Shown here: positions 206 through 17,551 of the stretch, one piece after another | How the letters are laid out: every line of letters begins with the position of its first letter | How positions within the stretch are numbered: position 1 is the stretch's first letter | IMG/VR virus record: IMGVR_UViG_3300032304_001793 | Location: 1 to 45,348 of that record | Reading direction: 5' to 3' (one strand) | From: a virus | DNA length: 45,348 bases | Made by a program: the position numbers and the translations under genes | The notes under the pieces: model-generated | The model's input: only the letters and a program-made list of their open reading frames with translations | Told to the model about the DNA's origin: nothing | Databases searched by the model: none

Positions 206-1081
206 TTATCCTCGATGAATCGTCGGCAGGACGTGGCACGCGGGCGTGCTCAGGTCTGCATACCTGGGATCGAGATATGCCTTCGTGATTTTTGGGCTTG
301 AGTGATCGAGCAGGAGAGTTGGATTGCCTCCCCGTGCAGCGTAGTGACTCGCAGCACAGCGTCTGAGCTTGTGGAATTTTGCCTTCCTTCCACTCCCCAG
401 GCCAGCCGCCGTGACAATGTCGCCGAAACGCATCCAAATGTGCGTGTAGCAGCGATCCCAACGCCAGATCAGGTCCGTCGGCTTCCGCCCTTCGCACAAC
501 TTGCCCACGAGCAACGCCGTCTCGTCGGTGAGCGTGTAGAGCCGGTCTCGTTTGCCCCCCTTGCGGTTCTCGGCACGGACGAGCAGGCGAGCCCCGGACC
601 AGTCCTCGACGCGAGCGGCGAAGATCGCGCCGCACCGTTCCGCCGACTCATAGAGGACACAGATCAACGATCGCCAAAAAAACCCGGCCGGCACGTCTCC
701 GATTCGCCCAGGCGTCGCACCGGCGATCGACACGAGGTGCTGTAGCTCCTCGACTGACCAGCACTGCGGAACTCGCTCCGGTAGTCGCGACGACGGCGGT
801 ACGCACGGGGAGACGTTTCGGATTCCACGGTCACGGGCAAAGCGACCAAGCGACACTAGCTGGCTTCGCTCCTTCTCGGCCGTGTAGGGGCTTCGTTGCT
901 GAGCCCGCAGGTCGAGGAATCTCGACAGCACGAGATCGTCGAGATCGTCGACGGTGGCCTCGCGGGCGAGATGACGAGTGAACGTCCTGAGGGTGCAGCG
1001 ATACAGGCGGGCAGTGTTTTCGCTGCGCCCACGCAGGCGAAGGGGGCGGAAGTGGTTCTCGAATAAATCGTTGAGAGTCAT
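206..1081 (-). CDS. int: Tyrosine recombinase / phage integrase
   Basis: This site-specific recombinase would integrate and excise the phage at an attachment site. The 291-residue protein shows an N-terminal SAM-like core-binding region (about 5-90) and a C-terminal catalytic domain with the expected order of residues: Arg149 (ESAERCGAI), Lys177 (KGGK), His237 and Arg240 (HKLRR), His260 (LLLDHSSPK) and the nucleophile Tyr269 (KAYLDP). The start at 1081 is chosen because a GGAG sits 8 bases upstream on the minus strand; the longer frame to 1276 has a non-homologous basic extension. The gene points left, opposite to nearly all others, as is usual for the lysogeny arm of temperate phages. The expected GH before Tyr is DH here, a tolerated variant. 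Confidence 0.93.
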   Translation of the reverse strand: MTLNDLFENHFRPLRLRGRSENTARLYRCTLRTFTRHLAREATVDDLDDLVLSRFLDLRAQQRSPYTAEKERSQLVSLGRFARDRGIRNVSPCVPPSSRLPERVPQCWSVEELQHLVSIAGATPGRIGDVPAGFFWRSLICVLYESAERCGAIFAARVEDWSGARLLVRAENRKGGKRDRLYTLTDETALLVGKLCEGRKPTDLIWRWDRCYTHIWMRFGDIVTAAGLGSGRKAKFHKLRRCAASHYAARGGNPTLLLDHSSPKITKAYLDPRYADLSTPACHVLPTIHRG

Positions 1082-1193
1082 GGCGTATCTCCGAGTACAG
1101 GGGAGGAGGATACGCATCCGTGCGAGGTAGTCATGCCTCCGTGGGGGGGCGCTCTCCTTCGAGAGAGAGCCCCCCGGGGTATGCCTTTTCGGT

Positions 1194-1484
1194 CTAATCG
1201 TTACAGGGGGGCCGTCTCCCTCGGTTGTCGCCCTTAATCGCGATCCGAATGTCCTCGCCCAGGGCGAGCGCTGCATATTCGATCGTGTTCAGCGGCGAGT
1301 CCTCTCTGGAGCCATCGTGCGCGCAGAGCAGGTGATAGGGCAGGACGTCACGGATGATTTTCCGGACGGCCTCGTTGCCGACGACACGGCCCACGCGGCT
1401 CTCGATCAAGTCTGCGATTCGCTTGGCATCGTCATAGGCGTCGAGGCATTCGACTTCTCCGACTGCGTCCCAAAACGGCTTCAT
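1194..1484 (-). CDS. Unknown small protein, leftward
   Basis: Encodes 96 residues starting MKPFWDAVGEVEC. The start is fixed by AACCAGGAGA eight bases upstream, the same ribosome-site sequence used across the rightward promoter array. The middle is helical and ends in a basic GDNRGRRPP tail. It precedes the integrase with a gap of about 110 bases and may be cotranscribed with it. No family recognised; as the first leftward gene it could be a lysogeny regulator, but no helix-turn-helix is evident. Confidence 0.7.
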   Translation of the reverse strand: MKPFWDAVGEVECLDAYDDAKRIADLIESRVGRVVGNEAVRKIIRDVLPYHLLCAHDGSREDSPLNTIEYAALALGEDIRIAIKGDNRGRRPPCND

Positions 1485-1539: not shown

Positions 1540-1570
1540 AAATAGTGGCACCCCCGCCACTTGAATGCAA
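1540..1570 (-). promoter_or_regulatory. Candidate leftward promoter with palindrome
   Basis: On the minus strand, TTGCAT (1565-1570) is followed by a GTGGC/GCCAC inverted repeat and then CTATTT (1540-1545). The layout resembles the rightward promoter array, but the spacer (about 19 nt) is long and the palindrome differs. It would drive the gene starting at 1484. Confidence 0.45.
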
Positions 1571-1574
1571 GTCC

Positions 1575-1608
1575 CCAGGGTTCTGGACGGTCCAGAACCC
1601 TGGTTTTT
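1575..1608 (+). terminator. Perfect 13-bp hairpin with T-tract
   Basis: CCAGGGTTCTGGA (1575-1587) pairs fully with TCCAGAACCCTGG (1591-1603) over a 3-nt loop, followed by TTTTT (1604-1608). This is a textbook rho-independent terminator on the + strand. It stands in the divergent region just before the first rightward gene, so it would block + transcription entering from the left, or attenuate the 1640 gene. Confidence 0.75.
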
Positions 1609-1617
1609 GGCTGGAAA

Positions 1618-1627
1618 GTACGGAAAT
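1618..1627 (+). repeat. GTCYGGATAC-class motif, diverged copy
   Basis: GTACGGAAAT, preceded by AA, lies just after the hairpin and 13 bases before the ATG at 1640. It matches the AAAGTACGGAT subtype seen at 19679 and 22270. Confidence 0.4.
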
Positions 1628-1639
1628 GAGGAGGCGATC

Positions 1640-2089
1640 ATGGCTGCGGACAGGATTGTGTCGGTTGTCGAGGCGGCGTCGGTCCGGGGGGTCTCCCGCG
1701 AGGCGATTATGAAGGCCATCAAGACGGGTCGCCTCTACGGCCACCTATTGTCCGGAAAGGGTTACTTGCTCTCGGCGAGGCAGGTCGAAGGCAAGACGTT
1801 CGACAGGCCGGCGTTCGAGAAGCTCTGCCGTCAGTACATCAGCGTCCCGGAGGCCTGCAACATCGTCTGGAAAACAGACGCTGCCGTGATGCGAGACCTC
1901 AGATCGGGAAAGATCAAGGGACTCAGAGTCAATCCGAAGTGCTGGGCCGTGCTCAAGTCTTCGGCTGAGGAAGAGTTTCGAGACTACGAGGAGAACGAGA
2001 AGCACCGCGTCGGCAGGAAGAGGACTGTCGGCGCCACTCGCTCGCCGCGAGACATCCGAAAAAAGTCCTTGAAACGGAAAGGCCGCTGA
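1640..2089 (+). CDS. Putative DNA-binding protein, tandem MerR/excisionase-like helix-turn-helix
   Basis: A 149-residue protein whose N-terminal segment (IVSVVEAASVRGVSREAIMKAIKTG, residues 6-30) fits the excisionase/MerR-type winged helix-turn-helix. A second, similar unit begins near residue 65 (YISVPEACNIVWKTDAAVMRDLRSG), so it appears to be an internal duplication. The C-terminus is strongly basic (RKRTVG...KKSLKRKGR). The start is set by GAGGAGG 7-8 bases upstream. As first gene of the rightward block facing the integrase, it is a good candidate for excisionase or a switch regulator. Function is inferred from fold and position only. Confidence 0.7.
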   Translation: MAADRIVSVVEAASVRGVSREAIMKAIKTGRLYGHLLSGKGYLLSARQVEGKTFDRPAFEKLCRQYISVPEACNIVWKTDAAVMRDLRSGKIKGLRVNPKCWAVLKSSAEEEFRDYEENEKHRVGRKRTVGATRSPRDIRKKSLKRKGR

Positions 2090-2103: not shown

Positions 2104-2322
2104 GTGTTGCAAATGATTATCCTGACCACCGTCGAGGCGGCCGAAGAACTCGGGACAAGCGCGTCAAGCATTTCTCGTGCTGCGAGGAAGGCCAACGTGG
2201 GCGTCCGACGAGAAGACGGTCGCCTCGTCGGTGTCAGCCGCAACGACATGAAGGCGATCAAGAAGCTCCTGCGGTACAAGGCTGGCAATCCCAACTTCGT
2301 CAAGGTGAAGAAGCATGCATAA
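2104..2322 (+). CDS. Small excisionase-like helix-turn-helix protein
   Basis: About 69-72 residues. The core LTTVEAAEELGTSASSISRAARKANVGVRREDGRLVGVSRNDM pattern (given here in outline) is a MerR/HTH_17-type unit: a TVEAAEELG first helix, a SISRAA recognition helix and a GRLVGV wing. Start codons at 2104 (GTG), 2107 (TTG) or 2113 (ATG) are possible, none with a clear ribosome site. A putative -10 at 2091 would make the mRNA nearly leaderless. It overlaps the deacetylase gene by 8 bases. Confidence 0.65.
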   Translation: MLQMIILTTVEAAEELGTSASSISRAARKANVGVRREDGRLVGVSRNDMKAIKKLLRYKAGNPNFVKVKKHA

Positions 2323-3199
2323 AGTCTTCTACAGCGACGACTACTGCCGTGCATCGCACGCGTTCGATACGACACGCAAAGCCGCGTGGATCGCCGAGTC
2401 GCTTCGCAGCCGGCCGATTCCTGGCATCGACGTTGTCGAGCCCCGCCCGGCGATGCTCGTCGAGGTAGAGCAGGTCCACTCCCGAGACTACGTCGAGGCG
2501 ATCCGCACGGGCGACCCGGACAGCGTCGCATCTTCGAGCGGCCTGCCGTGGTGCCCGGACATGCTCACGGCCGTGCTCGCGAGCACGGGGGGCATGATCG
2601 AGGCCGTTCGCGAGGCTGCGAAGTCCGGGCTCGCCGGTTCGTTGTCGAGCGGCATGCACCACGCGAGGCGGGATTACGGCATGGGCTTCTGCACGTTCAA
2701 CGGCCTTGCCATCGCCGCCCATGAGGCCGAGCTTTTGGGGTTCAATGACATCTTGATCCTCGATCTCGACGCGCATGGTGGTGGCGGAACCGCTTCTCTT
2801 ATTTCTGGGAAAGTACGGATAAGCCAACTCGACCTCGTCGTCGACCCGTTCGACCTGGGCGAGGGCTCGATCGACCTGTCACGGCGGAGCCCGATCGACT
2901 ACCTGACGGTGCTCGACTCGACGCTTCACGAGTTGTCGCCAGACATCGTGATCTACAACGCCGGCATGGACGTCGCCGTGGGCGACTGCGGCCCGATCGG
3001 CTTCGACTCGAACATCATCGCCGCCCGGGAGGCCACGGTTTTTTCGTGGGCTGCTGAGCGTTCGATTCCGATCTGCTACGCGATGGCCGGGGGATACACG
3101 GGCCCTGACCGATCTCGCGGCCTACTCGTAGCTCACCACCGCTGCACCATCCGGGCGGCGGAGCAAATTTTCTCTCAGCGTCAAGGAGCGACGGTATGA
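2315..3199 (+). CDS. HDAC-family (arginase/deacetylase fold) deacetylase
   Basis: A 294-residue zinc amidohydrolase of the histone deacetylase / acetoin-utilisation / acetylpolyamine amidohydrolase superfamily. All signature residues are visible: the catalytic His pair H115-H116 (GMHHARRDYG), the GFCTFNGLAIAA segment, metal ligands D152 and H154 (ILDLDAHGGGGT), third metal ligand D219 (YNAGMDVAVGD) and the transition-state Tyr261 in AGGY. Length is slightly short for the family (about 300-380). The substrate cannot be read from sequence; acetyl-lysine on host protein, acetylated polyamine or another small amide are options. It overlaps the helix-turn-helix gene upstream and precedes a small Cys-rich gene, so it is in the first rightward operon. 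Such a gene in a phage is unusual. Confidence 0.88.
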   Translation: MHKVFYSDDYCRASHAFDTTRKAAWIAESLRSRPIPGIDVVEPRPAMLVEVEQVHSRDYVEAIRTGDPDSVASSSGLPWCPDMLTAVLASTGGMIEAVREAAKSGLAGSLSSGMHHARRDYGMGFCTFNGLAIAAHEAELLGFNDILILDLDAHGGGGTASLISGKVRISQLDLVVDPFDLGEGSIDLSRRSPIDYLTVLDSTLHELSPDIVIYNAGMDVAVGDCGPIGFDSNIIAAREATVFSWAAERSIPICYAMAGGYTGPDRSRGLLVAHHRCTIRAAEQIFSQRQGATV

Positions 3200-3420
3200 A
3201 CTGTGCGAATTGCGTTTTCTGGAACTCGAACCCCGTCATGCAGCCCCCGATGCCGGGCATGCCGCCGCAGATGCCTCTGCCCCAGGGCCTCGGTCAGTGC
3301 CGACGCAACGCTCCGTTTCCGCTGCCGATGCCGCCGATGGGCATGCAGCAAATGCCCCCGCTCCAGTGGCCGGTCACGACGGCCAACGACACCTGCGGCG
3401 AGTGCAAGGTGAAGGAATGA
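3196..3420 (+). CDS. Small Cys-rich, Pro/Met-rich phage protein
   Basis: 74 residues. Two CxxC pairs (NCANCVFW at the start, CGECKVKE at the end) and a central CRRNAP enclose a proline- and methionine-rich stretch (PMPGMPPQMP, PMPPMGMQQMPP). The order NC..CxFW / CRR.aP / WP.T...D.CGE is a recurring phage protein pattern and probably forms a small zinc-binding unit. RBS AAGGAG precedes the ATG. It overlaps the deacetylase by 4 bases and the next gene by an ATGA. Confidence 0.75.
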   Translation: MNCANCVFWNSNPVMQPPMPGMPPQMPLPQGLGQCRRNAPFPLPMPPMGMQQMPPLQWPVTTANDTCGECKVKE

Positions 3421-3809
3421 GCAACGTCGACCACCCTGCCCACTACAACTCGCACCCGAGCGGCGTTGAAGCGATCGAGATCGCTGAGCGGCTGTCTTTC
3501 AATCTCGGCAACGCCATCAAGTACCTGATGCGACGGAAGCACAAGGGCCGAGAACTTGAAGACCTGCAAAAGGCCCTCTGGTACACGAAGCGGGAGCACG
3601 AGCGGCTCTCGAAATCGCCTCGCGACGTGTGGCCCGGCTCTGGGATTCTGGTTGAGAAGGCCATCAACGTCGTCGCCGCCGAGGATTGTCCGGATATGGC
3701 AACCGCGATCGGGCTCCTGGCTCTCGCGAACTGGTGTGACGCGTCGTCTCGTCTGGTGTTCCTCGCGGCGGAGTTGATCGAGGAAGAGATTCAGGAGCTA
3801 TCGAAGTGA
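3417..3809 (+). CDS. DUF3310-family phage protein with C-terminal extension
   Basis: 130 residues. The N-terminal half (VDHPAHYNSHPSGVEAIEIAE, then FNLGNAIKYLMRRKHKG and LQKALWYTKRE) is the DUF3310 family, common in phages and often described as a nucleotide-kinase-associated or SaV-like protein of unknown activity. The second half (from about residue 70) is helical and unrecognised. The start overlaps the preceding stop as ATGA, with GAAGG upstream. A longer frame to 3210 is only a shadow of the Cys-rich gene. Confidence 0.85.
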   Translation: MSNVDHPAHYNSHPSGVEAIEIAERLSFNLGNAIKYLMRRKHKGRELEDLQKALWYTKREHERLSKSPRDVWPGSGILVEKAINVVAAEDCPDMATAIGLLALANWCDASSRLVFLAAELIEEEIQELSK

Positions 3810-3908: not shown

Positions 3909-4019
3909 ATGAACGAAGACTTGAGTCGATTCGTCCCGGCGATCATCACGATCTCGATCATTGCAGTCTCGACGATCTCCTTTTTCGTCGGCCTCATCAT
4001 CGGGGCGGCTGCCGGATGA
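3909..4019 (+). CDS. 36-residue single-pass membrane peptide
   Basis: Begins MNEDLSRFVPAII and continues as a long hydrophobic helix (roughly residues 9-36, ending GLIIGAAAG). CGGAGG lies 7 bases before the ATG and the stop overlaps the methyltransferase start (ATGA), so it is a good translated small ORF. Function unknown. Confidence 0.6.
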   Translation: MNEDLSRFVPAIITISIIAVSTISFFVGLIIGAAAG

Positions 4020-4750
4020 AGAACGCCATTCTCAGGGGCGACTGCCTGAAGGTCCTGCCGACTCTCCCGAGAGAGAGCGTCGACCTCGTCGTCGCGGACC
4101 CGCCATACAACATCGGGGTTGACTACGGCAACGGCAAGAAAGCCGATCGCCGCGATGACTACTGGGGCTGGTGTGAGCGGTGGATCGGTTGGTGCTACCG
4201 AGCACTCAAGCCGACGGGATCGCTCTGGATCATCAGCGGCCAGGAACACGGCGCGGAGATCGACATCGCGATCCAGCGTGCTGGCATGACGATGCGGAAC
4301 CGGATCACTTGGCATGAGACATTCGGCGTCTATTGCCACGGGAAGTTCGGCCGCACGAGCCGGCCGATCTTCTACGCGACCAAGTCTCCGAAGGGCTTCA
4401 CGTTCAACCGCGATGCCGTCACGGTGCCGTCGTCCCGCCAGGAAAAGTACGGCGACAGGCGTGCCGCACCCGGTGGGAAGGTCATGGGCGACGTGTGGAC
4501 GATCTCCAGGGTCTGCGGCACGTTCAAGGAACGCGTCAAGGGTGTGCCCACGCAACTCCCGACGGAACTCGTGCAGCGAATCATCGGCGTGTCGAGCAAT
4601 CCCGGCGATATCGTGCTCGACCCGTTTGCAGGTAGCGGAACGTCCCTCGTCGTCGCGAAGGCGATGGGGCGTGAGGCGATTGGGATCGAGTTGAACCCGG
4701 ACTATGCCGCCATCGCGAGCCGGCGATTTGAAGGAGCGAAGACAGCATGA
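4016..4750 (+). CDS. DNA methyltransferase, N6-adenine/N4-cytosine class beta
   Basis: A 244-residue SAM-dependent enzyme of the N6_N4_Mtase family. Catalytic motif IV DPPYN is at residues 28-32 and the SAM-binding motif I (LDPFAGSGTS) at about 201-210, so the order is the circularly permuted beta class. The target-recognition part lies between. No restriction endonuclease is adjacent, which fits an orphan phage methyltransferase used to evade host restriction or mark phage DNA. It overlaps both neighbours (ATGA at each end), placing it in the early rightward operon with the MazG-like gene. Confidence 0.92.
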   Translation: MKNAILRGDCLKVLPTLPRESVDLVVADPPYNIGVDYGNGKKADRRDDYWGWCERWIGWCYRALKPTGSLWIISGQEHGAEIDIAIQRAGMTMRNRITWHETFGVYCHGKFGRTSRPIFYATKSPKGFTFNRDAVTVPSSRQEKYGDRRAAPGGKVMGDVWTISRVCGTFKERVKGVPTQLPTELVQRIIGVSSNPGDIVLDPFAGSGTSLVVAKAMGREAIGIELNPDYAAIASRRFEGAKTA

Positions 4751-5058
4751 CGACGTGGGAATTCCTCATCGGGGCCGTGGAGAAGTGGGCGATCGCCCGC
4801 CAGATCGTCCCCAACTCGACGCCTCAGGCGCAACTGATGAAGACGCTGAGCGAACTCGGCGAACTCGCCGACGCGACGCTCCAAAACGACCGCGAGGGCG
4901 TCGTCGACGGCCTGGGTGACGTGCTCGTCACGCTGATCATCTACGCAAGACTTCAGGGCGTCGACCTGGGGGCGTGCCTCGCGTCTGCCTATCAGGTGAT
5001 CAAGGACAGGAAGGGCACGCTCACGGCCGAGGGTGTCTTCGTCAAGGAGGAAGAATGA
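4747..5058 (+). CDS. MazG-like nucleotide pyrophosphohydrolase
   Basis: 103 residues, the size of a single MazG-like domain. The helical core has ELGELADATLQND followed by GLGDVLVTLIIYARLQG, matching the ExxE...(D)xxxD metal-binding arrangement of the all-alpha NTP pyrophosphatase superfamily. Members hydrolyse (d)NTPs, and phage copies are proposed to alter nucleotide pools or (p)ppGpp signalling. ATGA overlap with the methyltransferase and with the next gene suggests a nucleotide/DNA-modification operon. Confidence 0.8.
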   Translation: MTTWEFLIGAVEKWAIARQIVPNSTPQAQLMKTLSELGELADATLQNDREGVVDGLGDVLVTLIIYARLQGVDLGACLASAYQVIKDRKGTLTAEGVFVKEEE

Positions 5059-5393
5059 GGCAGCTTCTCTACATCGCCGCACCGTACACGAAGCCAGAGC
5101 CAGTCCACAACCTGCATGGCGTCTGCCGTGTGGCAATGGAAATCTACGAGCGGACGGAGTGGTGCCCGTTTGTGCCGCACCTGTCGCTCGTGTGGCAGGC
5201 GGTGACGCCACGAGACTACGACCACTGGATCAATTACGACCTGCATGTCATGCGGCAATGTCAGGCGGTGGTCCGGCTTCCAGGCGAATCTCCCGGCGCG
5301 GACGGTGAGATCGAGGAAGCGAAGAGACTTGGGATCAGAATTGTGTCGCTTGAAGAACTGCCTCCCGAGGCCCTGGAGCACTGGCACCTATGA
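5055..5393 (+). CDS. DUF4406-like, nucleoside 2-deoxyribosyltransferase-like protein
   Basis: 112 residues. The N-terminal YIAAPYT, the central FVPHLSLVWQ segment, the HVMRQCQAVVRLPGESPGADGEIEEAKRLG region (shown in part: LPGESPGADGEIEEAK) and the final IVSLEEL fit the Rossmann-like DUF4406 family related to nucleoside 2-deoxyribosyltransferases. The conserved Glu in GEIEEA corresponds to the region carrying the catalytic Glu in that superfamily. It sits directly behind the MazG-like gene, consistent with nucleotide metabolism. Enzymatic activity is inferred. Confidence 0.72.
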   Translation: MRQLLYIAAPYTKPEPVHNLHGVCRVAMEIYERTEWCPFVPHLSLVWQAVTPRDYDHWINYDLHVMRQCQAVVRLPGESPGADGEIEEAKRLGIRIVSLEELPPEALEHWHL

Positions 5394-9076: not shown

Positions 9077-9105
9077 TTGCAATGCACCGAGATCGGTGCT
9101 ATACT
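9077..9105 (+). promoter_or_regulatory. Array promoter with full palindromic operator
   Basis: TTGCAA (9077-9082), spacer TGCACCGAGATCGGTGC (17), TATACT (9100-9105). The spacer palindrome GCACCGA/TCGGTGC is the most symmetric copy. Drives the AAA+ ATPase gene. Confidence 0.88.
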
Positions 9106-9151
9106 CTTGGGGTCGGTTGGAAAAGCAACTCTCACCAAAGGACACGAACCC

Positions 9152-10237
9152 ATGAGCAATGTCGCCGCCATCCCCGCCTGGAAGAGCTACCGCGTCGGGG
9201 CCGAGATCAACGGATGGAAGATCGTCGAGGTCGTCCGCAAGACGACGGTCAAGGGTTACCGGACCCGCATCTTCACTCTCGAATGTCTGGATACGGGCCG
9301 TCAGGTCCGCAAGTCGAGCAGGGGCATCACGCTCTTCGCCGAGGGGCAGCCGATCGACTTCGTCGAGCCGGCCGTCGCCGAAGTGGCTGCGGTCGTCGAG
9401 GTGAAGCCGGAGCCGGTTGCCGCCGTCTCGGGCAAGGTCCGCCACGCGAACTACGAGGCCCTGCTTCGGGCCGTCCGGGCGAAGGTGGCGGTGTGGCTCT
9501 ACGGCCCCCCCGGCACCGGCAAGACCACGGCAGCGGCCAACGTCGCCGAGGACCTGGGGCTCGACTTCTACCCCGTCCCCTGCGGCCCGCAGACGAGCGA
9601 GGCGAAGCTGCTCGGCTACACCGACGCGGTGAGCAAGGTCGTCCTGACGCAGCTTCGCAAGGCCTACGAGTTCGGCGGCGTCGCCCTCCTCGACGAGATC
9701 GACGCAGCGAGCCCGGCGACGCTCGTGACGATCAACAGCCTCCTGGGCAACGATCAGGTGGGGTTCCCAGACGGCACTATCCGGCGGCACCCCAACTTCA
9801 TCCCGATCTGCGGCGCGAACACCGTTGGACAGGGCGGCAACCGGCTGCTCGTCGGCCGGAATCAACTCGACGGTGCTACGCTCGATCGGTTCTGCATCCT
9901 GTCCTGGGAGACCGATCCTGCCATCGCAGCGGCGGCTGCGGGCCTGCCGGCCTGGGCCCTCGACGGCTTGCCGAAGCCGAAGACGGTTCGGTTTGAAACC
10001 GACGTGACGGCCGAGCAGGTCTCTGAGCGGTGCATCGCATTCGCCCAGTTCACGGTCAAGGTCTTCAACGTCCTGGCGTCGTTTAACGGCTCGATCCGCG
10101 CCTACGTCGGCAACCGGGCATTCATCAACGGGACCGCCCTGATCCGCCAGGGGTTCTCGGTGGCCGACGCCGTGGATGCCACGGTCTGGAAGGGCCTCGA
10201 CGGCGACACGCGGGCGAAAATCGAAGCCTGCTTGTAA
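9152..10237 (+). CDS. MoxR/CbbQ-like AAA+ ATPase
   Basis: 361 residues. Walker A GPPGTGKTT at 118-126, Walker B ALLDEID at 178-184, and an AAA+ sensor-1-like region (FIPICGANT) follow an N-terminal beta domain (1-95). The arrangement matches MoxR/CbbQ-type ATPases, which act as chaperone-like remodelers, usually with a von Willebrand-A partner. The next gene could encode a partner, but no MIDAS motif is visible. The start follows AAAGGA in a long leader behind a full array promoter. A role in virion or enzyme maturation is inference. Confidence 0.88.
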   Translation: MSNVAAIPAWKSYRVGAEINGWKIVEVVRKTTVKGYRTRIFTLECLDTGRQVRKSSRGITLFAEGQPIDFVEPAVAEVAAVVEVKPEPVAAVSGKVRHANYEALLRAVRAKVAVWLYGPPGTGKTTAAANVAEDLGLDFYPVPCGPQTSEAKLLGYTDAVSKVVLTQLRKAYEFGGVALLDEIDAASPATLVTINSLLGNDQVGFPDGTIRRHPNFIPICGANTVGQGGNRLLVGRNQLDGATLDRFCILSWETDPAIAAAAAGLPAWALDGLPKPKTVRFETDVTAEQVSERCIAFAQFTVKVFNVLASFNGSIRAYVGNRAFINGTALIRQGFSVADAVDATVWKGLDGDTRAKIEACL

Positions 10238-10260
10238 TGCACCGAGGTCGTAGGTATAAT
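10232..10260 (+). promoter_or_regulatory. Array promoter TTGTAA-17-TATAAT
   Basis: TTGTAA (10232-10237) contains the TAA stop of the ATPase gene. TATAAT (10255-10260) is a consensus -10. The left operator half GCACCG is intact, the right is degenerate (CGTAGG). Confidence 0.82.
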
Positions 10261-10288
10261 GAAGCACCCCCAGGGAGACATCGACAAA

Positions 10289-11089
10289 ATGGCACACACT
10301 GAGCAATCCTTCGAGACGTTCGAGGCCTTCATCGAGGCCGCCTGCAAGCCGACGTCGGACCGCGAGCACTCAGGGCGGCCCGCCGGCCGCAGGGAGTGGT
10401 ACGGCACAGAGACCTTCGAGGAGGCTGTGTCCCTCGCTAAGACAGGCTGGAGAGAGGGCGCTGAGAAAGCCTCCGCCCTGCGTGCGTCGATTGCCGGCGC
10501 CGTCAATGATCTCATCGCGGCGAGGACCACGGCCTACTCCTACGACGTGTCCGGTCAGTGGGTCGACGTCGGCCTGCACCTCTCGGGAGAGCCTGAGTGT
10601 TTCGGGGTCGAAGACTCGGGCGAAGGCCCCCGGCCAGTGGTCAAGCTGCTCTTCAACGCCGCCGCCAGCGGCTCTGTCGACGCCGGGTCCCTGATCGCCC
10701 GGGGCGTGGCTGCCGTAGCTGCGATCGACATCCTGGAGTCGACAGGACGCCGTGTTGAGGTCTGGCTCGTCAAGGGCGGGCAGCGGAAGCGAGGGGTTGG
10801 GACGCATGCCATACGCGTGCTCCTGAAGAAGGCAGACCAGCCGGTCGACGTCGACCGGATAGCCTTCGCCCTGGCGTGCCCCGCCTGCCTGCGGCGGCTC
10901 CTGTTCTCCGTTCAGCACAACGCCGGATTCGCAGCCGTGAGGACGCTCCCCCACACCGTCCCCACCGACGGCGAGTCGATCCTGGTGCCTCACCTCCGCC
11001 GCGAGTCGGGGGTCAGCCGGGCAGACCTCCTGGCCCATGTATCCGAGATTTGCCGACAGGCGGGGGTCGCGATCGAGGCCCCCTTGTAA
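10289..11089 (+). CDS. Unknown 266-residue protein, possible partner of the AAA+ ATPase
   Basis: Start at 10289 behind GGGAG. The N-terminal part has ETFEEAVSLAKTGWREGAEKA, reminiscent of phage DUF7192-type proteins. The centre contains PVVKLLFNAAASGSVDAGSLIARG and VAAIDILESTGRRVEVWLVK, and a late segment has ALACPACLRRLLFSVQ. The 10-100 and 140-200 blocks look like an alpha/beta fold. Adjacent promoter-linked placement after the MoxR-like ATPase is the only functional clue. Confidence 0.72.
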   Translation: MAHTEQSFETFEAFIEAACKPTSDREHSGRPAGRREWYGTETFEEAVSLAKTGWREGAEKASALRASIAGAVNDLIAARTTAYSYDVSGQWVDVGLHLSGEPECFGVEDSGEGPRPVVKLLFNAAASGSVDAGSLIARGVAAVAAIDILESTGRRVEVWLVKGGQRKRGVGTHAIRVLLKKADQPVDVDRIAFALACPACLRRLLFSVQHNAGFAAVRTLPHTVPTDGESILVPHLRRESGVSRADLLAHVSEICRQAGVAIEAPL

Positions 11090-11112
11090 TGCACCGAGAC
11101 CGGTGGTATGAT
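11084..11112 (+). promoter_or_regulatory. Array promoter TTGTAA-17-TATGAT
   Basis: TTGTAA (11084-11089, containing a TAA stop), spacer with GCACCG and CCGGTGG, TATGAT (11107-11112). Confidence 0.82.
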
Positions 11113-11137
11113 GCTGGGGTCACGAGGAGAAATCGAC

Positions 11138-11650
11138 ATGCCCTACAAATTCCTTCGAGTCACGAGCAACGACGGCCGGTGCGAGAAGTGCGGCACGGCC
11201 TGCCCGAAGCGTCGGGTCGAGGTGCTGCCCGTCGACGCCGACGGCAACGCCTGCGGGCCCGTCCAGCTTTGGGGCGTGAACTGCGCCGCCTTCGCCCGCT
11301 ACGGCAGCAAGTCGCAGCGGCACCAGTCGAGCGTCGTGGCCGAGGCCAACGAGACTGAGCGGCAGCGGGTCGCCTGGGAGCACCAGAAGCTCTCGCGGGT
11401 TGCCGCCGTCAGCCGGAGCTACGACTTCGGAGTCGTCGTCGTGTGCGGCTCAGGCGAGGGCAACGACAGCCTGGGGAACGTCGCGAACAGGCTCTACCAT
11501 CGGACCGGCCGGAGCCTCGTCGGCAGCTACTTTGCTCGTGGCCCCTACGGCGAGGTTGTGCGGGTCGACGGCAGCGACGCGGCCGACGTGCAGTTCTTCG
11601 TGGATCGTGGGTATGTTCAGTTCACCAACCCCGTGGAGGCTGCGATATGA
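11138..11650 (+). CDS. Unknown protein with N-terminal zinc-knuckle-like Cys
   Basis: 170 residues. CEKCGTACPKRR and a later CGP/NCAA give a possible four-Cys zinc site in residues 15-55; the ARYGSKSQRHQSS linker is polar, and the C-terminal part (VVVVCGSGEGNDSLGNVAN, SLVGSYFARGPYGEVVRV) is beta-rich. GAGGAG ribosome site. No family recognised. Confidence 0.7.
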   Translation: MPYKFLRVTSNDGRCEKCGTACPKRRVEVLPVDADGNACGPVQLWGVNCAAFARYGSKSQRHQSSVVAEANETERQRVAWEHQKLSRVAAVSRSYDFGVVVVCGSGEGNDSLGNVANRLYHRTGRSLVGSYFARGPYGEVVRVDGSDAADVQFFVDRGYVQFTNPVEAAI

Positions 11651-11868
11651 ACAAGCCACAAAGGCTGTACGAGGTCACCACACCGGCTGGCAAAGTGCTG
11701 CCGCTCCGGCGAGGCCTCCAGTTCCGCCACAAGCGAATCATCGACGCCCAGTGCGTCGTCACCCGGGTGTGTCGCGGCATGGTTTACTACAAGGTCCTCC
11801 CCAATAGCTCCAGCGACTGCTTCCCCGTCGACCAGTTCGACCGATGGGCCGAAATCGTCGGGGAATAG
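11647..11868 (+). CDS. Unknown 73-residue protein
   Basis: Starts with an ATGA overlap. Basic N-terminal half (GKVLPLRRGLQFRHKRIID) and a C-terminal DQFDRWAEIVGE. Second gene of the unit driven from 11084. Confidence 0.62.
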   Translation: MNKPQRLYEVTTPAGKVLPLRRGLQFRHKRIIDAQCVVTRVCRGMVYYKVLPNSSSDCFPVDQFDRWAEIVGE

Positions 11869-11874
11869 CCCCCC

Positions 11875-11902
11875 TTGCAATGCACCGACGTCGTGCTATA
11901 CT
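11875..11902 (+). promoter_or_regulatory. Array promoter, 16-nt spacer
   Basis: TTGCAA (11875-11880), spacer TGCACCGACGTCGTGC (16), TATACT (11897-11902). One base of the right operator half is deleted relative to other copies. Confidence 0.82.
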
Positions 11903-11925
11903 TGAGACACCCCAGGAGAAATACC

Positions 11926-12876
11926 ATGACCGACCTCAGCATCCTCTCGCCCTCCGAAGTCGACACGATCTACCTCAAGCGGCTTGCCTCCTACGACCGT
12001 GCTGCGAACGCCCTCGGCTATGCGACCGACCGCGTCCTCCGCGAGGCGGGCGACGTCGTCAGAGTTCAATACTCAAGCCGAAGCTGGGGCAGTCACATCG
12101 TCCGCAAGGGCACGACCCTGCCGAGCTACCCGGTCTACGCCGACGTCCAGCCGCATCTCCTGACGGTCCAGGAGTGCGTCGACGGCCGTCTGGCAACGGC
12201 CGACAGCCTGGACGCCCTAGCGAGGGCCAGTGTCGTCTGCCAGGAGGCCCGGGAGGCCTGCCGTGAGGTCGAGGTCGAGTACGATCGCCGGCCCTGGAGT
12301 CGCTACTGGCTCGTCACGTCGAGCGACGGGCACATCCACCGCTCGTGCCGCTGCTCGACCTGCAATAAGGGCCTCCGCCGCACGGGGTTCGCTCTGACGC
12401 CGTTCCTGAGCGGCAAGTCTGACGCCGATGCCGTTGCCGACCTGGGCCCGGCGCTGTGCTCGGTCTGCTTCACGGACGCCCCTGTCGAGTCGAAGGAACA
12501 GGCCCGCATCCCGGCCTGGCTCGCCCTGGCCCTCGCCGAGGAGGGCGTCGAGGCCTTCCAGAAGGCTCGCCAGGAGGCATCGGCGAAGCGGGCCTCGCGA
12601 TGCCCTGGCTCGGGCCAGCGGGCTCTCCCTGGCCGCAACGGCCTGTGGCACCGTTGCCCGGCCTGCGGCGACTCCCTGTCTGCCACCCCGACCGGCAAGG
12701 TCCGCCCCCACAAGCCGGCACATTTCTACATCGAGAACAACGACTACAAGGCCTGGAACGGCTCTGCCTGGGGCCCCCGCACGAAGGCCGCGATCTACGG
12801 GTCTTTCGACGAGGCCGAGGCGGTGGCGGCCAAGCTGTCCGAGGCCGGGAGCCCCTGCAAAACACGGCGGAAATGA
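11926..12876 (+). CDS. Unknown phage protein with zinc-finger-like region
   Basis: 316 residues. The central SSDGHIHRSCRCSTCNKG followed by ALCSVCFTDAP looks like a Cys/His zinc-binding module found in hypothetical proteins of actinobacterial phages. A second Cys group, CPGSGQRALPG...HRCPACGDSLS, lies near residue 230-250, then a short AP2-like or WGR-like beta tail (FYIENNDYKAWNGSAWG). Two zinc modules suggest nucleic-acid binding. Private array promoter and GGAGA site. Confidence 0.75.
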   Translation: MTDLSILSPSEVDTIYLKRLASYDRAANALGYATDRVLREAGDVVRVQYSSRSWGSHIVRKGTTLPSYPVYADVQPHLLTVQECVDGRLATADSLDALARASVVCQEAREACREVEVEYDRRPWSRYWLVTSSDGHIHRSCRCSTCNKGLRRTGFALTPFLSGKSDADAVADLGPALCSVCFTDAPVESKEQARIPAWLALALAEEGVEAFQKARQEASAKRASRCPGSGQRALPGRNGLWHRCPACGDSLSATPTGKVRPHKPAHFYIENNDYKAWNGSAWGPRTKAAIYGSFDEAEAVAAKLSEAGSPCKTRRK

Positions 12877-12881
12877 GGCCC

Positions 12882-12910
12882 TTGCAATGCACCGAGGACG
12901 GTGCTATACT
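12882..12910 (+). promoter_or_regulatory. Array promoter TTGCAA-17-TATACT
   Basis: TTGCAA (12882-12887), spacer with GCACCG-AGGA-CGGTGC, TATACT (12905-12910), followed by the conserved TTGGGGCAGAC leader. Confidence 0.88.
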
Positions 12911-12952
12911 TGGGGCAGACGGGACGAGACACCACTCACCAGGAGACGAGAC

Positions 12953-13645
12953 ATGAACATCCACTTCGACATCAACGCGACCAGCCAGACCGAGTGGTAC
13001 GACGTCCGGTGTGACGAACTGCCCGGCCAGGAACTCGGCTACATCTACCTCTGCGCCGGTTACGGCGGCAGCTACTGCTACACCATCAAAACGCAGTCGG
13101 ACTACAAGCGGCATCGAGGCGCCCTTCGCAGCCGCCTGTTCAAGACCCTCGACGAGGCCAAGCAGGCCGCGACAGCCACCGTCGCCCGCCGGCTGAAGCA
13201 GGGGCGGGACGCGGAGCCCGTCAAGCACGGCTGCGGCCACTACTACAAGTGTGGCCCGAGGTGGTACTACGTCTACGTCGGGAGCAATGGCGAGGCCCTC
13301 TGCTACCCGCAGCCGGCGGCCTCGAAGAAGGACGCCCTGGCGAAGCTCCAGGCCGTCCCGCTCTGGGTCCAGCACCCCGTGGACATCGTCGACGGCGTCG
13401 TCCGCTGGAAGTCCAACGGCAGCGTCCCGCCCGCCGACTGCCGAGAGAAGCTCCTGGCCGAGGGAGTCCGATTCGACGAGGCCAAGTCTGCGGCCGCCGA
13501 CAAGGCAGACTTGGAGGCCCTGGTCGCCGAGTACCGCAGCCGTCCCCGGGACGACAGCCCGGAGGCCCAGTTCGAGCGACTTGCCGCGTTTGGGCCTGGG
13601 CAGGTCATCGTCGACGTTCTCAGCGGCCACCGGTACGAGACTTGA
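12953..13645 (+). CDS. Unknown 230-residue protein
   Basis: N-terminal part is Tyr/Cys-rich beta sequence (LGYIYLCAGYGGSYCYTIK), with SRLFKTLDEAKQAATATVARR as a helix, then a repeat-like second unit (GPRWYYVYVGSNGEALCYPQ, KKDALAKLQAV). Both halves have a strand-strand-strand-helix layout, suggesting duplicated AP2/integrase-arm-like or dsRBD-like units. Function unknown. CAGGAGAC leader. Confidence 0.7.
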   Translation: MNIHFDINATSQTEWYDVRCDELPGQELGYIYLCAGYGGSYCYTIKTQSDYKRHRGALRSRLFKTLDEAKQAATATVARRLKQGRDAEPVKHGCGHYYKCGPRWYYVYVGSNGEALCYPQPAASKKDALAKLQAVPLWVQHPVDIVDGVVRWKSNGSVPPADCREKLLAEGVRFDEAKSAAADKADLEALVAEYRSRPRDDSPEAQFERLAAFGPGQVIVDVLSGHRYET

Positions 13646-13654
13646 GGAGCCCCC

Positions 13655-13683
13655 TTGCAAACCACCGACATCGGTGCTATACT
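13655..13683 (+). promoter_or_regulatory. Array promoter TTGCAA-17-TATACT
   Basis: TTGCAA (13655-13660), spacer ACCACCGACATCGGTGC, TATACT (13678-13683). The leader up to AACCAGGAGACGACC is nearly identical to the copies at 12882 and 17481. Confidence 0.88.
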
Positions 13684-13726
13684 TGGGGCAGACGGGACGA
13701 GACACCACTAACCAGGAGACGACCCA

Positions 13727-14440
13727 GTGAGCACTTTCATCCGACAAGCGTTCGAGACCTACAAGCGACTCTTCGAGGCCCGTCAGGCCGCCGTTGCCGC
13801 CGGCCAGTACATCCTCCAGGGACCGTCCCTTGTCGGCTACCTGGGCGACGGCGTCACTGAGGCTGTGCCGACGTGCAGGGACCTCCAGAAACGGTACTTC
13901 GAGGCCCAGGCCTCGCTTCTCGAAGGCCTCGATGCCGTGATCAAGTCGAAGACCGGATTCGCCGGCTCATTCGCTGCCCTGGTCGACGCCCAGCGGCTGC
14001 ACGGGTACGTTCCAACGATCCGCCCCGATGGCGACGACGACCTTGCCGTTCTGGCCGATGCCTACGACTTCGCCGTCGAGAGACAGGCCCTGTCGAGCAA
14101 GTGCTACCGGGGCGTCCAGGCCCAGGCTGCCAAGCACCGCACGGTCCACCTCCTCGACGACCTGGGGGTCTACAAGGCGACCCTGAAGCGGAACTTCGCC
14201 GACAACGACCGGGGCGCCGAGTTCGACCGCGACCGGGAACTGCTCGCCCGGCGGACGCAGCGGTACACGCTCGAAGAGGCCGAGGTGCTCCTCGGGTGGT
14301 GCGTTTCGTCGCACGACGAGTGCGTCGACTCGAACCCCGATGAGTTCAGCCCGATCGAGGTCTACACGTCCCGTCAAAAGCTCCGCCGGTGGGACGATGC
14401 CAGGGCCCGCCTGGATGCCTTGAAGGCGGCCACCGCCTGA
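13727..14440 (+). CDS. Unknown helical protein
   Basis: 237 residues from a GTG start behind AGGAGACGACCCA. Mostly helical, charged (FIRQAFETYKRLFEARQAAV, RNFADNDRGAEFDRDRELL, EEAEVLLGWCVSSHDEC). No recognised domain. Last gene before a GTCYGGATAC element. Confidence 0.72.
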   Translation: MSTFIRQAFETYKRLFEARQAAVAAGQYILQGPSLVGYLGDGVTEAVPTCRDLQKRYFEAQASLLEGLDAVIKSKTGFAGSFAALVDAQRLHGYVPTIRPDGDDDLAVLADAYDFAVERQALSSKCYRGVQAQAAKHRTVHLLDDLGVYKATLKRNFADNDRGAEFDRDRELLARRTQRYTLEEAEVLLGWCVSSHDECVDSNPDEFSPIEVYTSRQKLRRWDDARARLDALKAATA

Positions 14441-14453
14441 ATTGTCCGGATAC
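14441..14453 (+). repeat. GTCYGGATAC motif
   Basis: ATTGTCCGGATAC begins one base after the TGA of the previous gene. The downstream GTG start is 24 bases after the motif, with CAGGAGAC between. Confidence 0.7.
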
Positions 14454-14476
14454 ACCAACCCCCAGGAGACTTGACC

Positions 14477-14962
14477 GTGAACGCATCCCCAGTCACCACG
14501 TTCGCAAAGCTGGCCGAGTCCGCCGGCTGGCGGTTCGAGACAGCCTGGACCGACCGTGAGCCCAACCCTGAGGCCCTGGAGATCGCCGGCGCCCGCTACG
14601 CCACGCTCGTGTCTGCCGACGGGCTCGTGAAGGTGGGGCTCGTCGGTACACGGCTCTACTACCACGGCGGCAGGGTCTGGTGGGGCGACCCCTGCTTCGA
14701 CATCGAGGCCGACCGCGTCACGGTCGCTGGGATCGTCGTCGACCCGGGCCACCGTCGCCAGGGGCTCGGGACGGCCGCCGTGCGGTCGCTCGTGGACGTG
14801 GCCGACCAGGGCGGCTTCCGGCTGCTCCTGGAGGCCCAGCCGATCGGGAAGGGCATCAGCCGGCGGAAGCTGGTGCAGTGGTACAAGGGCCTGGGGTTCG
14901 AGCCCGCCTACCCCGGCGAGGGCGAGACGATCTTGTGTCATAGGCCGAAAGCGGCCTGTTGA
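14477..14962 (+). CDS. GNAT-family N-acetyltransferase
   Basis: 161 residues. Motif A of the Gcn5-related acetyltransferases is clear: GIVVDPGHRRQGLGTAAVRSL (given in part: VDPGHRRQGLGT, residues 93-104), the acetyl-CoA pyrophosphate loop. Motif B follows (LVQWYKGLGFEPAYPGE). The N-terminal half is variable, as usual for substrate specificity. GTG 14477 is chosen over TTG 14471 because AGGAG is then 8 bases away. Acetyl acceptor unknown. Its presence in a phage that also carries a deacetylase (2315) is notable. Confidence 0.87.
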   Translation: MNASPVTTFAKLAESAGWRFETAWTDREPNPEALEIAGARYATLVSADGLVKVGLVGTRLYYHGGRVWWGDPCFDIEADRVTVAGIVVDPGHRRQGLGTAAVRSLVDVADQGGFRLLLEAQPIGKGISRRKLVQWYKGLGFEPAYPGEGETILCHRPKAAC

Positions 14963-14987
14963 CAATGCACCGACCCCGGTGTATACT
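14959..14987 (+). promoter_or_regulatory. Array promoter TTGACA-17-TATACT
   Basis: TTGACA (14959-14964, overlapping the upstream stop), spacer ATGCACCGACCCCGGTG, TATACT (14982-14987). This copy has a consensus -35. Confidence 0.87.
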
Positions 14988-15031
14988 TGGGGGACGACGG
15001 ACGAAACACCGCTTATCAGGAGACCTGACAA

Positions 15032-15277
15032 ATGGCCGCAAGCAAGTTCAAGTACCAAATCGAGAGCCACAAGTCTCACGTCGCTGAGATCGTCGACGGC
15101 AGGCTCGCAGGTGTCGCAAAGAAGTCGTTCGAGGCGTTCTTTGTCTCGGCGGAGGGCTACAGGAAGTTCCTGGGCGGAGCCAGCACGCGAGAAGAGGCTA
15201 AGGGCCTCTGTGCCGCAGATCGGGCCGCCAGACTTGCTCGCGAATTCCTTCGAGCCAGCGGCGACGCCCGCAAGTGA
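15032..15277 (+). CDS. Unknown 81-residue protein
   Basis: Basic N-terminus (MAASKFKYQIESHKSHVAEI), central FEAFFVSAEGYRKFLGGAST, C-terminal helix. AGGAGACCTGACAA leader. No family recognised. Confidence 0.65.
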   Translation: MAASKFKYQIESHKSHVAEIVDGRLAGVAKKSFEAFFVSAEGYRKFLGGASTREEAKGLCAADRAARLAREFLRASGDARK

Positions 15278-15281
15278 TCAA

Positions 15282-15301
15282 ATTGTCCGGATACCATCAC
15301 C
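15282..15301 (+). repeat. GTCYGGATAC motif, extended form
   Basis: ATTGTCCGGATACCATCACC starts 5 bases after the upstream TGA. It matches the extended consensus GTCYGGATACSATMACC. The next start is 20 bases downstream. Confidence 0.7.
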
Positions 15302-15320
15302 ATCAACAAGGAGACGACCC

Positions 15321-15734
15321 GTGAAGATCAAGAACGCACACGACCTCAATCAGTCCAAGTTGCTCGACGCCATCAACCGCAAGGCCGCCGTGGCCCACCG
15401 GGCCGCCGACGTCGCCAAGGGGAATCTGGCCGAGCGGGTCGCCTCGCACGCCGCCAGTGGCATCAACACGGCAAGCGATGCCGTGAAGCTCGCCCGGATC
15501 GCCAGGAACTGGCACTGGGTCCTCCAGTGCGCCGCCAGGGCCGTCGCGGACGGGGGCACGGACGTATCCGGCGCCGTGACGCAGTGCCAAGCCGGTATCC
15601 GGCGGTCGATCGAGTTCTACGCCGACCAGGGGCAGGGCACCTGCCCGTTCCACAACGCGGTCGCCTACGCGGAGGTCAAGGGAGACATCGAGACGCTCAG
15701 GGAGATCGAGAACCTGCCCGGCGTCGACGGCTGA
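15321..15734 (+). CDS. Unknown helical protein
   Basis: 137 residues from GTG, AAGGAGACGACCC upstream. Rich in Ala and helical throughout (AAVAHRAADVAKGNLAERV, AVKLARIARNWHWVLQ, FYADQGQGTCPFHNAVAYAE). No family recognised. Confidence 0.67.
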   Translation: MKIKNAHDLNQSKLLDAINRKAAVAHRAADVAKGNLAERVASHAASGINTASDAVKLARIARNWHWVLQCAARAVADGGTDVSGAVTQCQAGIRRSIEFYADQGQGTCPFHNAVAYAEVKGDIETLREIENLPGVDG

Positions 15735-15753
15735 TTGTCCGGATACGCAGAAC
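15734..15753 (+). repeat. GTCYGGATAC motif
   Basis: ATTGTCCGGATACGCAGAAC shares its first A with the TGA of the previous gene. The following GTG is 28 bases downstream of the block. Confidence 0.7.
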
Positions 15754-15780
15754 CATCACCCTTAACCAGGAGACTTGCAA

Positions 15781-16311
15781 GTGAACATCGACAAGCCGAT
15801 CCGAATCGAAGCGGGCAAGTACGAGTATCGCGGCTTCACGATCGAGCGGGCCACGAACATTCGCGGCTGCCCCTGGATCGTGAAGGGGCGTGGGCTTGGG
15901 TGGCAGCCCTGCTTCAAGACAATCCTCCGTGCATGGCAAGAAATCCGCTACTGGGAGCACACGTTCGCCAATGGCGGGAGGCTCTCGCCGGCCACGCTCA
16001 AGGCCTTCGCCCCCGCGAAGACCATCAAGCTGCCCCCTGCGTTCTACCAGGACCACTCGGAGCGAGACTTGCCCACACCTGAAGACATCGGCAAGGCCAA
16101 GTCTTACGTCCTGGTCAGGGCCGACGACCCGGCCCTGCCTGAGCTTCTCAACGACGCCGAGTTCTACGCCGACCCCTGGGGGCCCGACGCCGAGTGGCTC
16201 GGCGGGCTCAAGGCCTCAGCCAGGGCGACGATCCGGGCCATCCGGGACGTCACCGGCTGGGACGACGCGAGCGAGACGGTCAAGCGGCTGCGGAAGCCGA
16301 AAAAGGCCTGA
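15781..16311 (+). CDS. Unknown 176-residue protein
   Basis: GTG 15781 with AGGAG 8 bases upstream; TTG 15775 is less well spaced. N-terminal beta part (GKYEYRGFTIERATNIRG), then PWIVKGRGLGWQPCFKTI, and a proline-rich ASP-type middle (AKTIKLPPAFYQDHSERD). The short YRGF(T/V)I segment recurs in the protein at 17552, suggesting a shared module. Confidence 0.68.
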   Translation: MNIDKPIRIEAGKYEYRGFTIERATNIRGCPWIVKGRGLGWQPCFKTILRAWQEIRYWEHTFANGGRLSPATLKAFAPAKTIKLPPAFYQDHSERDLPTPEDIGKAKSYVLVRADDPALPELLNDAEFYADPWGPDAEWLGGLKASARATIRAIRDVTGWDDASETVKRLRKPKKA

Positions 16312-16320
16312 TTTCAGGCC
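16305..16320 (+). repeat. Short hairpin at stop codon
   Basis: GGCCTGA (16305-16311) and TCAGGCC (16314-16320) form a 7-bp stem over TT. It encloses the TGA but has no T-tract, so termination is uncertain. Confidence 0.45.
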
Positions 16321-16322
16321 CC

Positions 16323-16351
16323 TTGCCAATACACCGATGGCGGTGTATACT
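16323..16351 (+). promoter_or_regulatory. Array promoter TTGCCA-17-TATACT
   Basis: TTGCCA (16323-16328), spacer ATACACCGATGGCGGTG, TATACT (16346-16351). The operator reads ACACCG-ATGG-CGGTGT, a compensated change that keeps the symmetry. Confidence 0.88.
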
Positions 16352-16390
16352 TGGGGCACGACGAACGAAACACTAACCAGGAGACGACCC

Positions 16391-16729
16391 GTGAGCGACC
16401 CCCTCAAGAACATCATCGAGTCCGCCGGCTTCGAGGACGTGGCCTGCGACGTCCCTGTGTCCTGCTACTCCCTGCCCCTGACGTTCCGGGCCTTCCACGC
16501 CCTGCGCGCCCTGGACCACGGGCTCATCGGCACGCCCGACTATCTGGGCATCGCCTACTTCTGGGCGCACGAGTACAAGTTCTATCTCCGCGAGGCGACG
16601 CAAAAGCAGCGGAAGATCGTCCACGATCTGTTCCTCAAGGCGGGGCTCGCCCTCGACGGGGTCAGTCCAGAGCACGCCGCGATCGTCGAGAAGCAACTCG
16701 GCAAGCGGCTCAAGAAGGTCTACGGCTGA
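16391..16729 (+). CDS. Unknown 112-residue protein
   Basis: GTG start behind GGAGACGACCC. Helical, with FRAFHALRALDHGLIGTPDY, FWAHEYKFYLREATQKQRK and LGKRLKKVYG. No family recognised. Confidence 0.67.
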   Translation: MSDPLKNIIESAGFEDVACDVPVSCYSLPLTFRAFHALRALDHGLIGTPDYLGIAYFWAHEYKFYLREATQKQRKIVHDLFLKAGLALDGVSPEHAAIVEKQLGKRLKKVYG

Positions 16730-16759
16730 TACCATCCACCCCTAACCAGGAGACCACCC
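16730..16759 (+). repeat. Degenerate GTCYGGATAC-class leader
   Basis: TACCATCCACCCCTAACCAGG keeps only the TACCATMACC half of the extended motif plus the common AACCAGGAGACCACCC ribosome leader, directly after the upstream TGA (in part: TACCATCCACC). Confidence 0.35.
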
Positions 16760-17083: not shown

Positions 17084-17086
17084 GCC

Positions 17087-17115
17087 TTGCCAATGCACCG
17101 ATCCCGGTGTATACT
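17087..17115 (+). promoter_or_regulatory. Array promoter TTGCCA-17-TATACT
   Basis: TTGCCA (17087-17092), spacer ATGCACCGATCCCGGTG, TATACT (17110-17115). Confidence 0.88.
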
Positions 17116-17158
17116 GCACCCAGACGACGACGAAACACCACTAACCAGGAGACATCGA

Positions 17159-17473: not shown

Positions 17474-17480
17474 GGCCCCC

Positions 17481-17509
17481 TTGCCAATGCACCGACTACG
17501 GTGTATACT
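17481..17509 (+). promoter_or_regulatory. Array promoter TTGCCA-17-TATACT
   Basis: TTGCCA (17481-17486), spacer ATGCACCGACTACGGTG, TATACT (17504-17509), leader TTGGGGCACGACGAAC. Confidence 0.88.
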
Positions 17510-17551
17510 TGGGGCACGACGAACGAACTACCCCCAACCAGGAGACGACCA

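Follow-up and report, generated by a model that had tools for sequence, protein, structure and literature searches.

The locus

The window, by which we mean the whole 45.3-kb virus record, contains a gene for a putative zinc amidohydrolase of the HDAC superfamily, called the deacylase here, together with the genes and motifs listed in Table 1. The frame starts with ATG and encodes 294 amino acids plus a stop (protein P0001), and its coordinates and reading frame are exact. The only Pfam match of the protein is Hist_deacetyl (PF00850), with an E value of 1.2e-33 and 117.2 bits against a cut-off of 27.9. The larger of the two upstream helix-turn-helix (HTH) genes is conserved in front of the deacylase in nine loci from four clusters, and a homologue (HTH_17, E 3e-15) also precedes the deacylase at locus L020, which is in a Planctomicrobium metagenome-assembled genome (MAG). 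The HTH-deacylase genes are closely preceded by a perfect 14-bp inverted repeat (CCAGGGTTCTGGAC/GTCCAGAACCCTGG) and, after it, five T residues; this element is a candidate terminator or attenuator-like leader.

Table 1. Features of the window discussed in the text
Feature	Position	Strand	Basis
Tyrosine integrase, divergent from the HTH-deacylase genes	206..1276	-	PF00589, phrog_1
HTH gene, excisionase-like, likely start ATG 1640	1565..2089	+	phrog_2907, E 7e-5
Inverted repeat and five T	1575-1608
Small HTH gene (excisionase/regulator-like), 8-nt overlap with deacylase start	2104..2322	+	phrog_66, E 0.006, weak
Putative HDAC-superfamily (class IV-like) zinc amidohydrolase	2315..3199	+	PF00850, AlphaFold2 model, VcHdaH fold match, dN/dS
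AFDTTRK, residues 16-22: family-specific L1 motif with invariant Thr19 and Lys22	2360..2380	+	alignment
SSGMHH, residues 111-116: foot-pocket motif in place of RPP; gatekeeper Met114; catalytic His115/His116	2645..2662	+	alignments; motif meaning from PMC11532494
DLDAHGGGGT, residues 150-159: dyad Asp150, zinc ligands Asp152 and His154, Gly157	2762..2791	+	alignments
YNAGMD, residues 214-219: zinc ligand Asp219	2954..2971	+	D219 invariant in 63/63 clusters
AGGY, residues 258-261: catalytic Tyr261	3086..3097	+	invariant in 63/63 clusters
Small Cys-rich protein, 4-nt overlap with deacylase stop	3196..3420	+	no Pfam or PHROG match
DUF3310	3417-3809	+	Pfam
N6/N4 DNA methyltransferase	4016-4750	+	Pfam
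MazG-type pyrophosphohydrolase	4747-5058	+	Pfam
DUF7768	5055-5393	+	Pfam
Nine sigma-70-like promoters	9077-19095
UvrD-type helicase gene	27230-29740
Intein (residues 261-534)	27989-28831		Pfam Intein_splicing
Ferritin-like protein	31521-31988		PF00210, E 1.2e-11

The virus and its genome

IMGVR_UViG_3300032293_001730 (93,893 bp) matches the window colinearly at about 95%, and this longer genome has genes for the large terminase subunit (phrog_9, 1e-113), the portal (phrog_12, 8.5e-104) and the tape measure protein (2e-21), which confirms that the window comes from a tailed phage. Searches with PF03237 and phrog_2 had missed the terminase in the relatives of the window, and phrog_9 detected it. 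Besides the integrase, the window encodes SNF2-type and UvrD helicases, an exonuclease VIII-like protein, a Prim-Pol and LamG/baseplate-like proteins. The sister chromosomal copy in the Planctomicrobium MAG adjoins adenylosuccinate synthetase-like and efflux-type genes, recognized by eye from the sequence, and its occurrence there suggests a planctomycete host.

Several other features of this genome deserve mention. The nine promoters in Table 1 are of the TTGCAA-17-TATACT type, have the palindrome CACCGNNNNCGGTG in the spacer and are located upstream of successive small genes; the palindrome has 21 matches on both strands versus 1.8 expected. The set looks like a dispersed operator-promoter regulon of one repressor. 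The UvrD-type helicase gene is interrupted by an intein, and the 93.9-kb sister genome has the same helicase without it. The window also encodes a ferritin-like protein.

The active site

The first-pass annotation had assigned this reading frame to an HDAC-type deacetylase and named six catalytic or zinc-binding residues (H115, H116, D152, H154, D219 and Y261), all of which, like the position of the frame, are correct by the sequence and the family alignment. For this alignment 107 sequences were grouped into 63 clusters at 70% identity. The six residues and the dyad Asp150, which is present beside them, are invariant in all 63 clusters, and so are T19, K22, T127, N129, A153, D173, N215 and H275.

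The family has signatures that are unlike those of either clade A or clade B of the class IV enzymes, namely FDTTRK in L1, SSG[L/M]HH, DxDAHxGGGT, YNAGxD and AGGY. The RPP motif that precedes the His-His pair in robust deacetylases is replaced, as SSGMHH in the window and as SSG[LMF]HH in most family clusters, and the gatekeeper residue is Leu in 58 clusters, Met in three and Phe in two. The rim position, Gly76 in the window, aligns with the Gly of GFPW in VcHdaH and is Gly in 55 of the 63 clusters. After the metal-binding His, other HDACs have H-(H/Q)-G-(D/N)-G, whereas the phage family has H-(C/G/A)-G-G-G. The second-shell Asp/Asn has become Gly157 in 62 of the 63 clusters; in other HDACs the residue at this position is the partner of the second catalytic His, and so the rate of the phage enzyme could be low.

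Codon comparisons with close relatives gave dN/dS values of 0.093 (L003), 0.116 (L004) and 0.134 (L005). Values of about 0.1 imply that the gene is under purifying selection, i.e., that it is maintained.

Fold and family placement

The AlphaFold2 model of the deacylase has a mean pLDDT of 94.9 and a pTM of 0.93. When the model was compared with known structures by VIA-align 2, VcHdaH was the best match (Z 39.4, 1.8 A over 284 residues) and the Leptospira HDAC11 the second best (Z 36.3), with every other family at 32.5 or less. VcHdaH (9gkv) was also the top match of a phmmer search of the PDB with the deacylase as query (4.9e-31), and a profile built from 37 relatives matched VcHdaH at 8.4e-47 and the acetylpolyamine amidohydrolase 9gkz at 4.7e-16. 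In a structural search of BFVD, giant-virus HDAC/APAH proteins were the sole clear viral neighbours. Searches of PHROG, NCBIfam and PADLOC found no model for the family, which is an absence from these libraries and not novelty by itself.

In a maximum-likelihood tree, with ten in-genome class I/II-type paralogues as the outgroup, the phage family is recovered at 100/100, lies inside class IV at 100/100 and groups with clade A at 94/93. Clade B forms a group of its own at 100/96, with the phage family outside it. The stem branch of the phage family is long, at 1.17 changes per column. For the planctomycete references, assignment to clade A or B was verified through the best match of each sequence in the PDB. 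By this tree the deacylase belongs to a tight new clade within class IV (HDAC11-type), next to clade A. Thus the structure prediction and phylogeny that the first-pass annotation had proposed bear out the HDAC fold, but not a placement of the AcuC, HdaH or acetylpolyamine amidohydrolase type. The same annotation had considered the protein a probably active amidohydrolase, and the sequence, the modelled fold, conservation and selection support this well; catalysis is very likely. One look-alike in BLAST, gp204 of Microbacterium phage Magritte, falls on a long branch with the class I/II-type paralogues and was left uncounted.

Distribution in viruses and bacteria

The first-pass annotation had called this family rare in phages, which is the case for sequenced isolates. 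Among 50,697 GenBank phage records there is one clear carrier, Rhodococcus phage E3 with its gp202 (two records, one phage); Staphylococcus and other weak matches, with between one quarter and three quarters of the query covered, were not counted. In uncultivated viruses the family is not rare. The same profile detected it in at least 98 IMG/VR contigs (80 kept), or 41 clusters at 70% identity; this count is a lower bound owing to pattern scanning. Strong bacterial members are rare, occurring in three of 392 planctomycete genomes (one partial) and five of 396 actinobacterial genomes. Judged from these counts, the family is mostly viral. Viral and chromosomal members are interleaved in the trees, with at least eight virus/bacterium label changes by parsimony, and this pattern implies that the gene has moved repeatedly.

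Two family members have unusual settings. One is on a contig of huge-phage size (IMGVR_UViG_3300022719_000283, 618,736 bp) that also encodes a terminase and, a long way from the deacylase gene, gives two weak matches to DSPc. The other is in CAMDCI010000195.1, which is titled a Bifidobacterium breve MAG. It groups with freshwater actinobacterial sequences, as the sister of L030, and therefore the name or the binning of this MAG is doubtful.

A phosphatase gene beside the deacylase in many relatives

In 31 loci a gene for a dual-specificity-type phosphatase lies directly upstream of the deacylase on the same strand, at a distance of -69 to +16 nt. In three further loci the two genes are divergent, and in one of these (L045) the predicted frames overlap. 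Abutting or divergent phosphatase genes occur in 15 of the 63 family clusters, nine of them viral, so that both phages and bacterial chromosomes are represented. The phosphatases have the HCxxGxxR signature and match DSPc with E values down to 7e-10, the viral ones more weakly. Locus L180, in which the phosphatase is about 2 kb from the deacylase, was excluded from the count. The divergence of the phosphatases correlates with that of the deacylases (Mantel Spearman 0.62, a value reached in 0 of 2000 permutations), as would be expected for an inherited pair; general co-inheritance would give the same result.

Pairs on bacterial contigs with no obvious phage, either co-directional or divergent, are present at L022-L025 (7341-8876), L050 (1655-3579), L112 (831-2385), L113 (633-2454) and L029 (238-1997).

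No phosphatase was found in the window or in its 93.9-, 96- and 44-kb relatives (G797, G798 and G799). Other recurrent neighbours of the deacylase are class II ribonucleotide reductase (RNR), ThyX, helicases, and ParB with PAPS-reductase-like genes; the RNR and PAPS reductase genes were recognized by eye. There is no acetyltransferase among the 40 recurrent neighbour families listed.

Proposed function

We lean towards the view that the deacylase is a catalytically competent zinc amidohydrolase whose natural substrate is a non-canonical N-acyl (amide-linked) molecule rather than acetyl-lysine. By analogy with characterized HDACs, Zn2+ would be held in this single-domain enzyme by Asp152, His154 and Asp219, while His115 and His116 would activate the water molecule and Tyr261 would stabilize the oxyanion. 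The exit for the released acid would be a foot pocket with SSGM and AGGY along its walls. The substrate would enter past a rim that lacks the peptide-positioning Asp/Glu of HDAC8 or of HDAC11 clade B, because Gly76 occupies this position, as in clade A, and from this we infer a natural substrate other than canonical acetyl-lysine. Most likely the substrate is non-peptidic, although it may be a medium-chain acyl-lysine. Put roughly, a non-peptidic small molecule has about an even chance of being the substrate, protein acyl-lysine is a serious but less probable candidate, some other compound is improbable, and acetylpolyamine is very improbable.

In many relatives the adjoining phosphatase probably shares a pathway or a target with the deacylase. 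The subclade of the window lost the phosphatase or never had it, and here the enzyme would be expressed with the excisionase-like HTH genes, upstream of genes for nucleotide and DNA modification. A more specific proposal, which we consider speculative, is that the phosphatase and this third class IV lineage form a mobile cassette in bacteria and uncultivated phages that removes first a phosphate and then an acyl group from one non-peptidic metabolite or nucleotide. Since the subclade of the window has no phosphatase, this two-enzyme idea is not applied to the window.

The alternatives overlap in part with the preferred reading. The one that has to be taken most seriously, although we regard it as clearly less probable, is lysine deacylation: during infection the enzyme would reset host or phage proteins that have been acylated (e.g., nucleoid proteins, RNA polymerase or acetyl-CoA synthetase) and, where the phosphatase is present, would erase post-translational marks together with it. 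The fold and catalytic centre are the same as those of lysine deacylases, the partner that recurs resembles a protein phosphatase, and the enzyme with the second-best fold, Leptospira HDAC11 of clade B, is a robust peptide deacylase (PMC13325672). Against this, the Asp/Glu that positions peptide backbones at the rim is replaced by Gly, the nearest relatives in sequence are poor or inactive on peptides, and the neighbour families listed include no acetyltransferase. Far less credible is an acetylpolyamine amidohydrolase like those of giant viruses, which would supply free spermidine to the replicating phage. The giant-virus APAH enzymes are real and active members of the same Pfam superfamily, but those tested all come from Imitervirales (PMC9992855). 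The closest group of the phage protein is class IV and not ApaH; the Glu gatekeeper of polyamine enzymes (HDAC10-type PEG; PMC11532494) is absent, the sequence after D219 being VAVGDCGPIG; and the protein has 294 residues versus 341-353 for ApaH chains. The host-protein or polyamine deacetylase suggested by the first-pass annotation thus finds no support in a class IV position near clade A and in the absence of both RPP and the polyamine gatekeeper, and on the sequence evidence the enzyme is unlikely to be specific for canonical acetyl-lysine or acetylpolyamines.

Two other proposals arise from the gene neighbourhood. The overlap with the small HTH gene and the divergent integrase would fit an accessory enzyme of the lysogeny module, co-expressed with excisionase-like regulators, that acts on prophage regulators or benefits the lysogen, and the HTH-deacylase pair is also present in the Planctomicrobium contig beside the synthetase-like and efflux-type genes. 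However, most viral members adjoin RNR, ThyX, helicase or ParB genes, integrase is not among the recurrent neighbours, and the genes downstream in the window are for replication and nucleotide metabolism, so we consider this role unlikely. A part in phage DNA or nucleotide metabolism, in which the enzyme would deacylate a modified nucleotide or DNA base, is somewhat less likely still. In the window the gene is close to those for the DNA methyltransferase, MazG and DUF7768, and other viruses have it near ThyX, class II RNR and ParB/PAPS-reductase genes. However, the replication regions of phages often contain genes of this sort, so their adjacency is weak evidence, and we know of no HDAC-superfamily member that acts on nucleotides.

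As far as the open-access literature searched shows, the class IV placement, the abundance in viruses and the pairing with a phosphatase seem new, and we found there no description of a phage class IV HDAC or of a phosphatase-HDAC pair. The superfamily itself was known, and one member had been annotated before. HDAC-superfamily enzymes are widespread in uncultivated tailed phages and hardly recorded in sequenced isolates, PHROGs or NCBIfam. Clade A of class IV has no known natural substrate, and a mostly viral sister lineage with a recurrent phosphatase neighbour would provide compact, testable systems for finding one. If the two-step cassette were true, it would reveal the missing natural substrate for clade-A-like enzymes and an unknown branch of phage-host chemistry.

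Comparison with known enzymes

The acetylpolyamine amidohydrolases of giant viruses belong to the same superfamily and are likewise virus-encoded, but they are from another cluster and another virus realm (PMC9992855). The member annotated earlier, gp202 of Rhodococcus phage E3 ('putative histone deacetylase'), belongs to the same family as the phage protein, to which it is 44% identical over 94%. We found no functional or phylogenetic study of gp202 in the literature searched. Its gene adjoins tail-fibre genes and not an integrase, unlike the gene in the window.

A bacterial survey by Graf et al. 2024 describes an RPP motif next to the active site of robust deacetylases (PMC11532494). VcHdaH and human HDAC11, which are without RPP, have an enlarged foot pocket and longer acyl chains as substrates; the de-decanoylase activity of VcHdaH is only weak, and its substrates may be small molecules (PMC11532494). 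In a 2026 study of class IV, the clade B enzymes are long-chain deacylases, whereas peptide deacylase activity was absent in every clade A enzyme tested and non-peptidic substrates were proposed for them (PMC13325672).

Leptospira interrogans HDAC11 (9gz5/9rjd) is in the same class IV branch as the phage family (100/100). As a clade B enzyme it has a Phe gatekeeper, a rim Glu and proven long- and short-chain deacylase activity. The phage family forms a separate clade, has no rim Glu and in place of the clade B Phe/Tyr has a Leu/Met gatekeeper, which is hydrophobic and in this respect similar in character to that of clade B.

VcHdaH of Vibrio cholerae (PDB 9gkv/9gky; sub-cluster 5b, which is class IV clade A) is the best match in both sequence and fold, at 30% identity. 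It shares with the phage family the loss of RPP, a GFPW-type L2 with a rim Gly, and the GGY of the catalytic Tyr. It differs in having a Tyr gatekeeper, DSDVHHGDGT and YDAGVD, where the phage family has Leu/Met, DxDAHxGGGT and YNAGxD, with FDTTRK in L1. Clade A is defined by a small polar (Thr/Ser) gatekeeper and an HRFP-type L1 (PMC13325672); the phage family has the rim Gly in place of Glu94, but neither of these two features. Because its gatekeeper and L1 match neither clade A nor clade B, the peptide inactivity of clade A can be transferred only with caution to the phage enzymes, which share the rim of clade A and have an L1 motif of their own.
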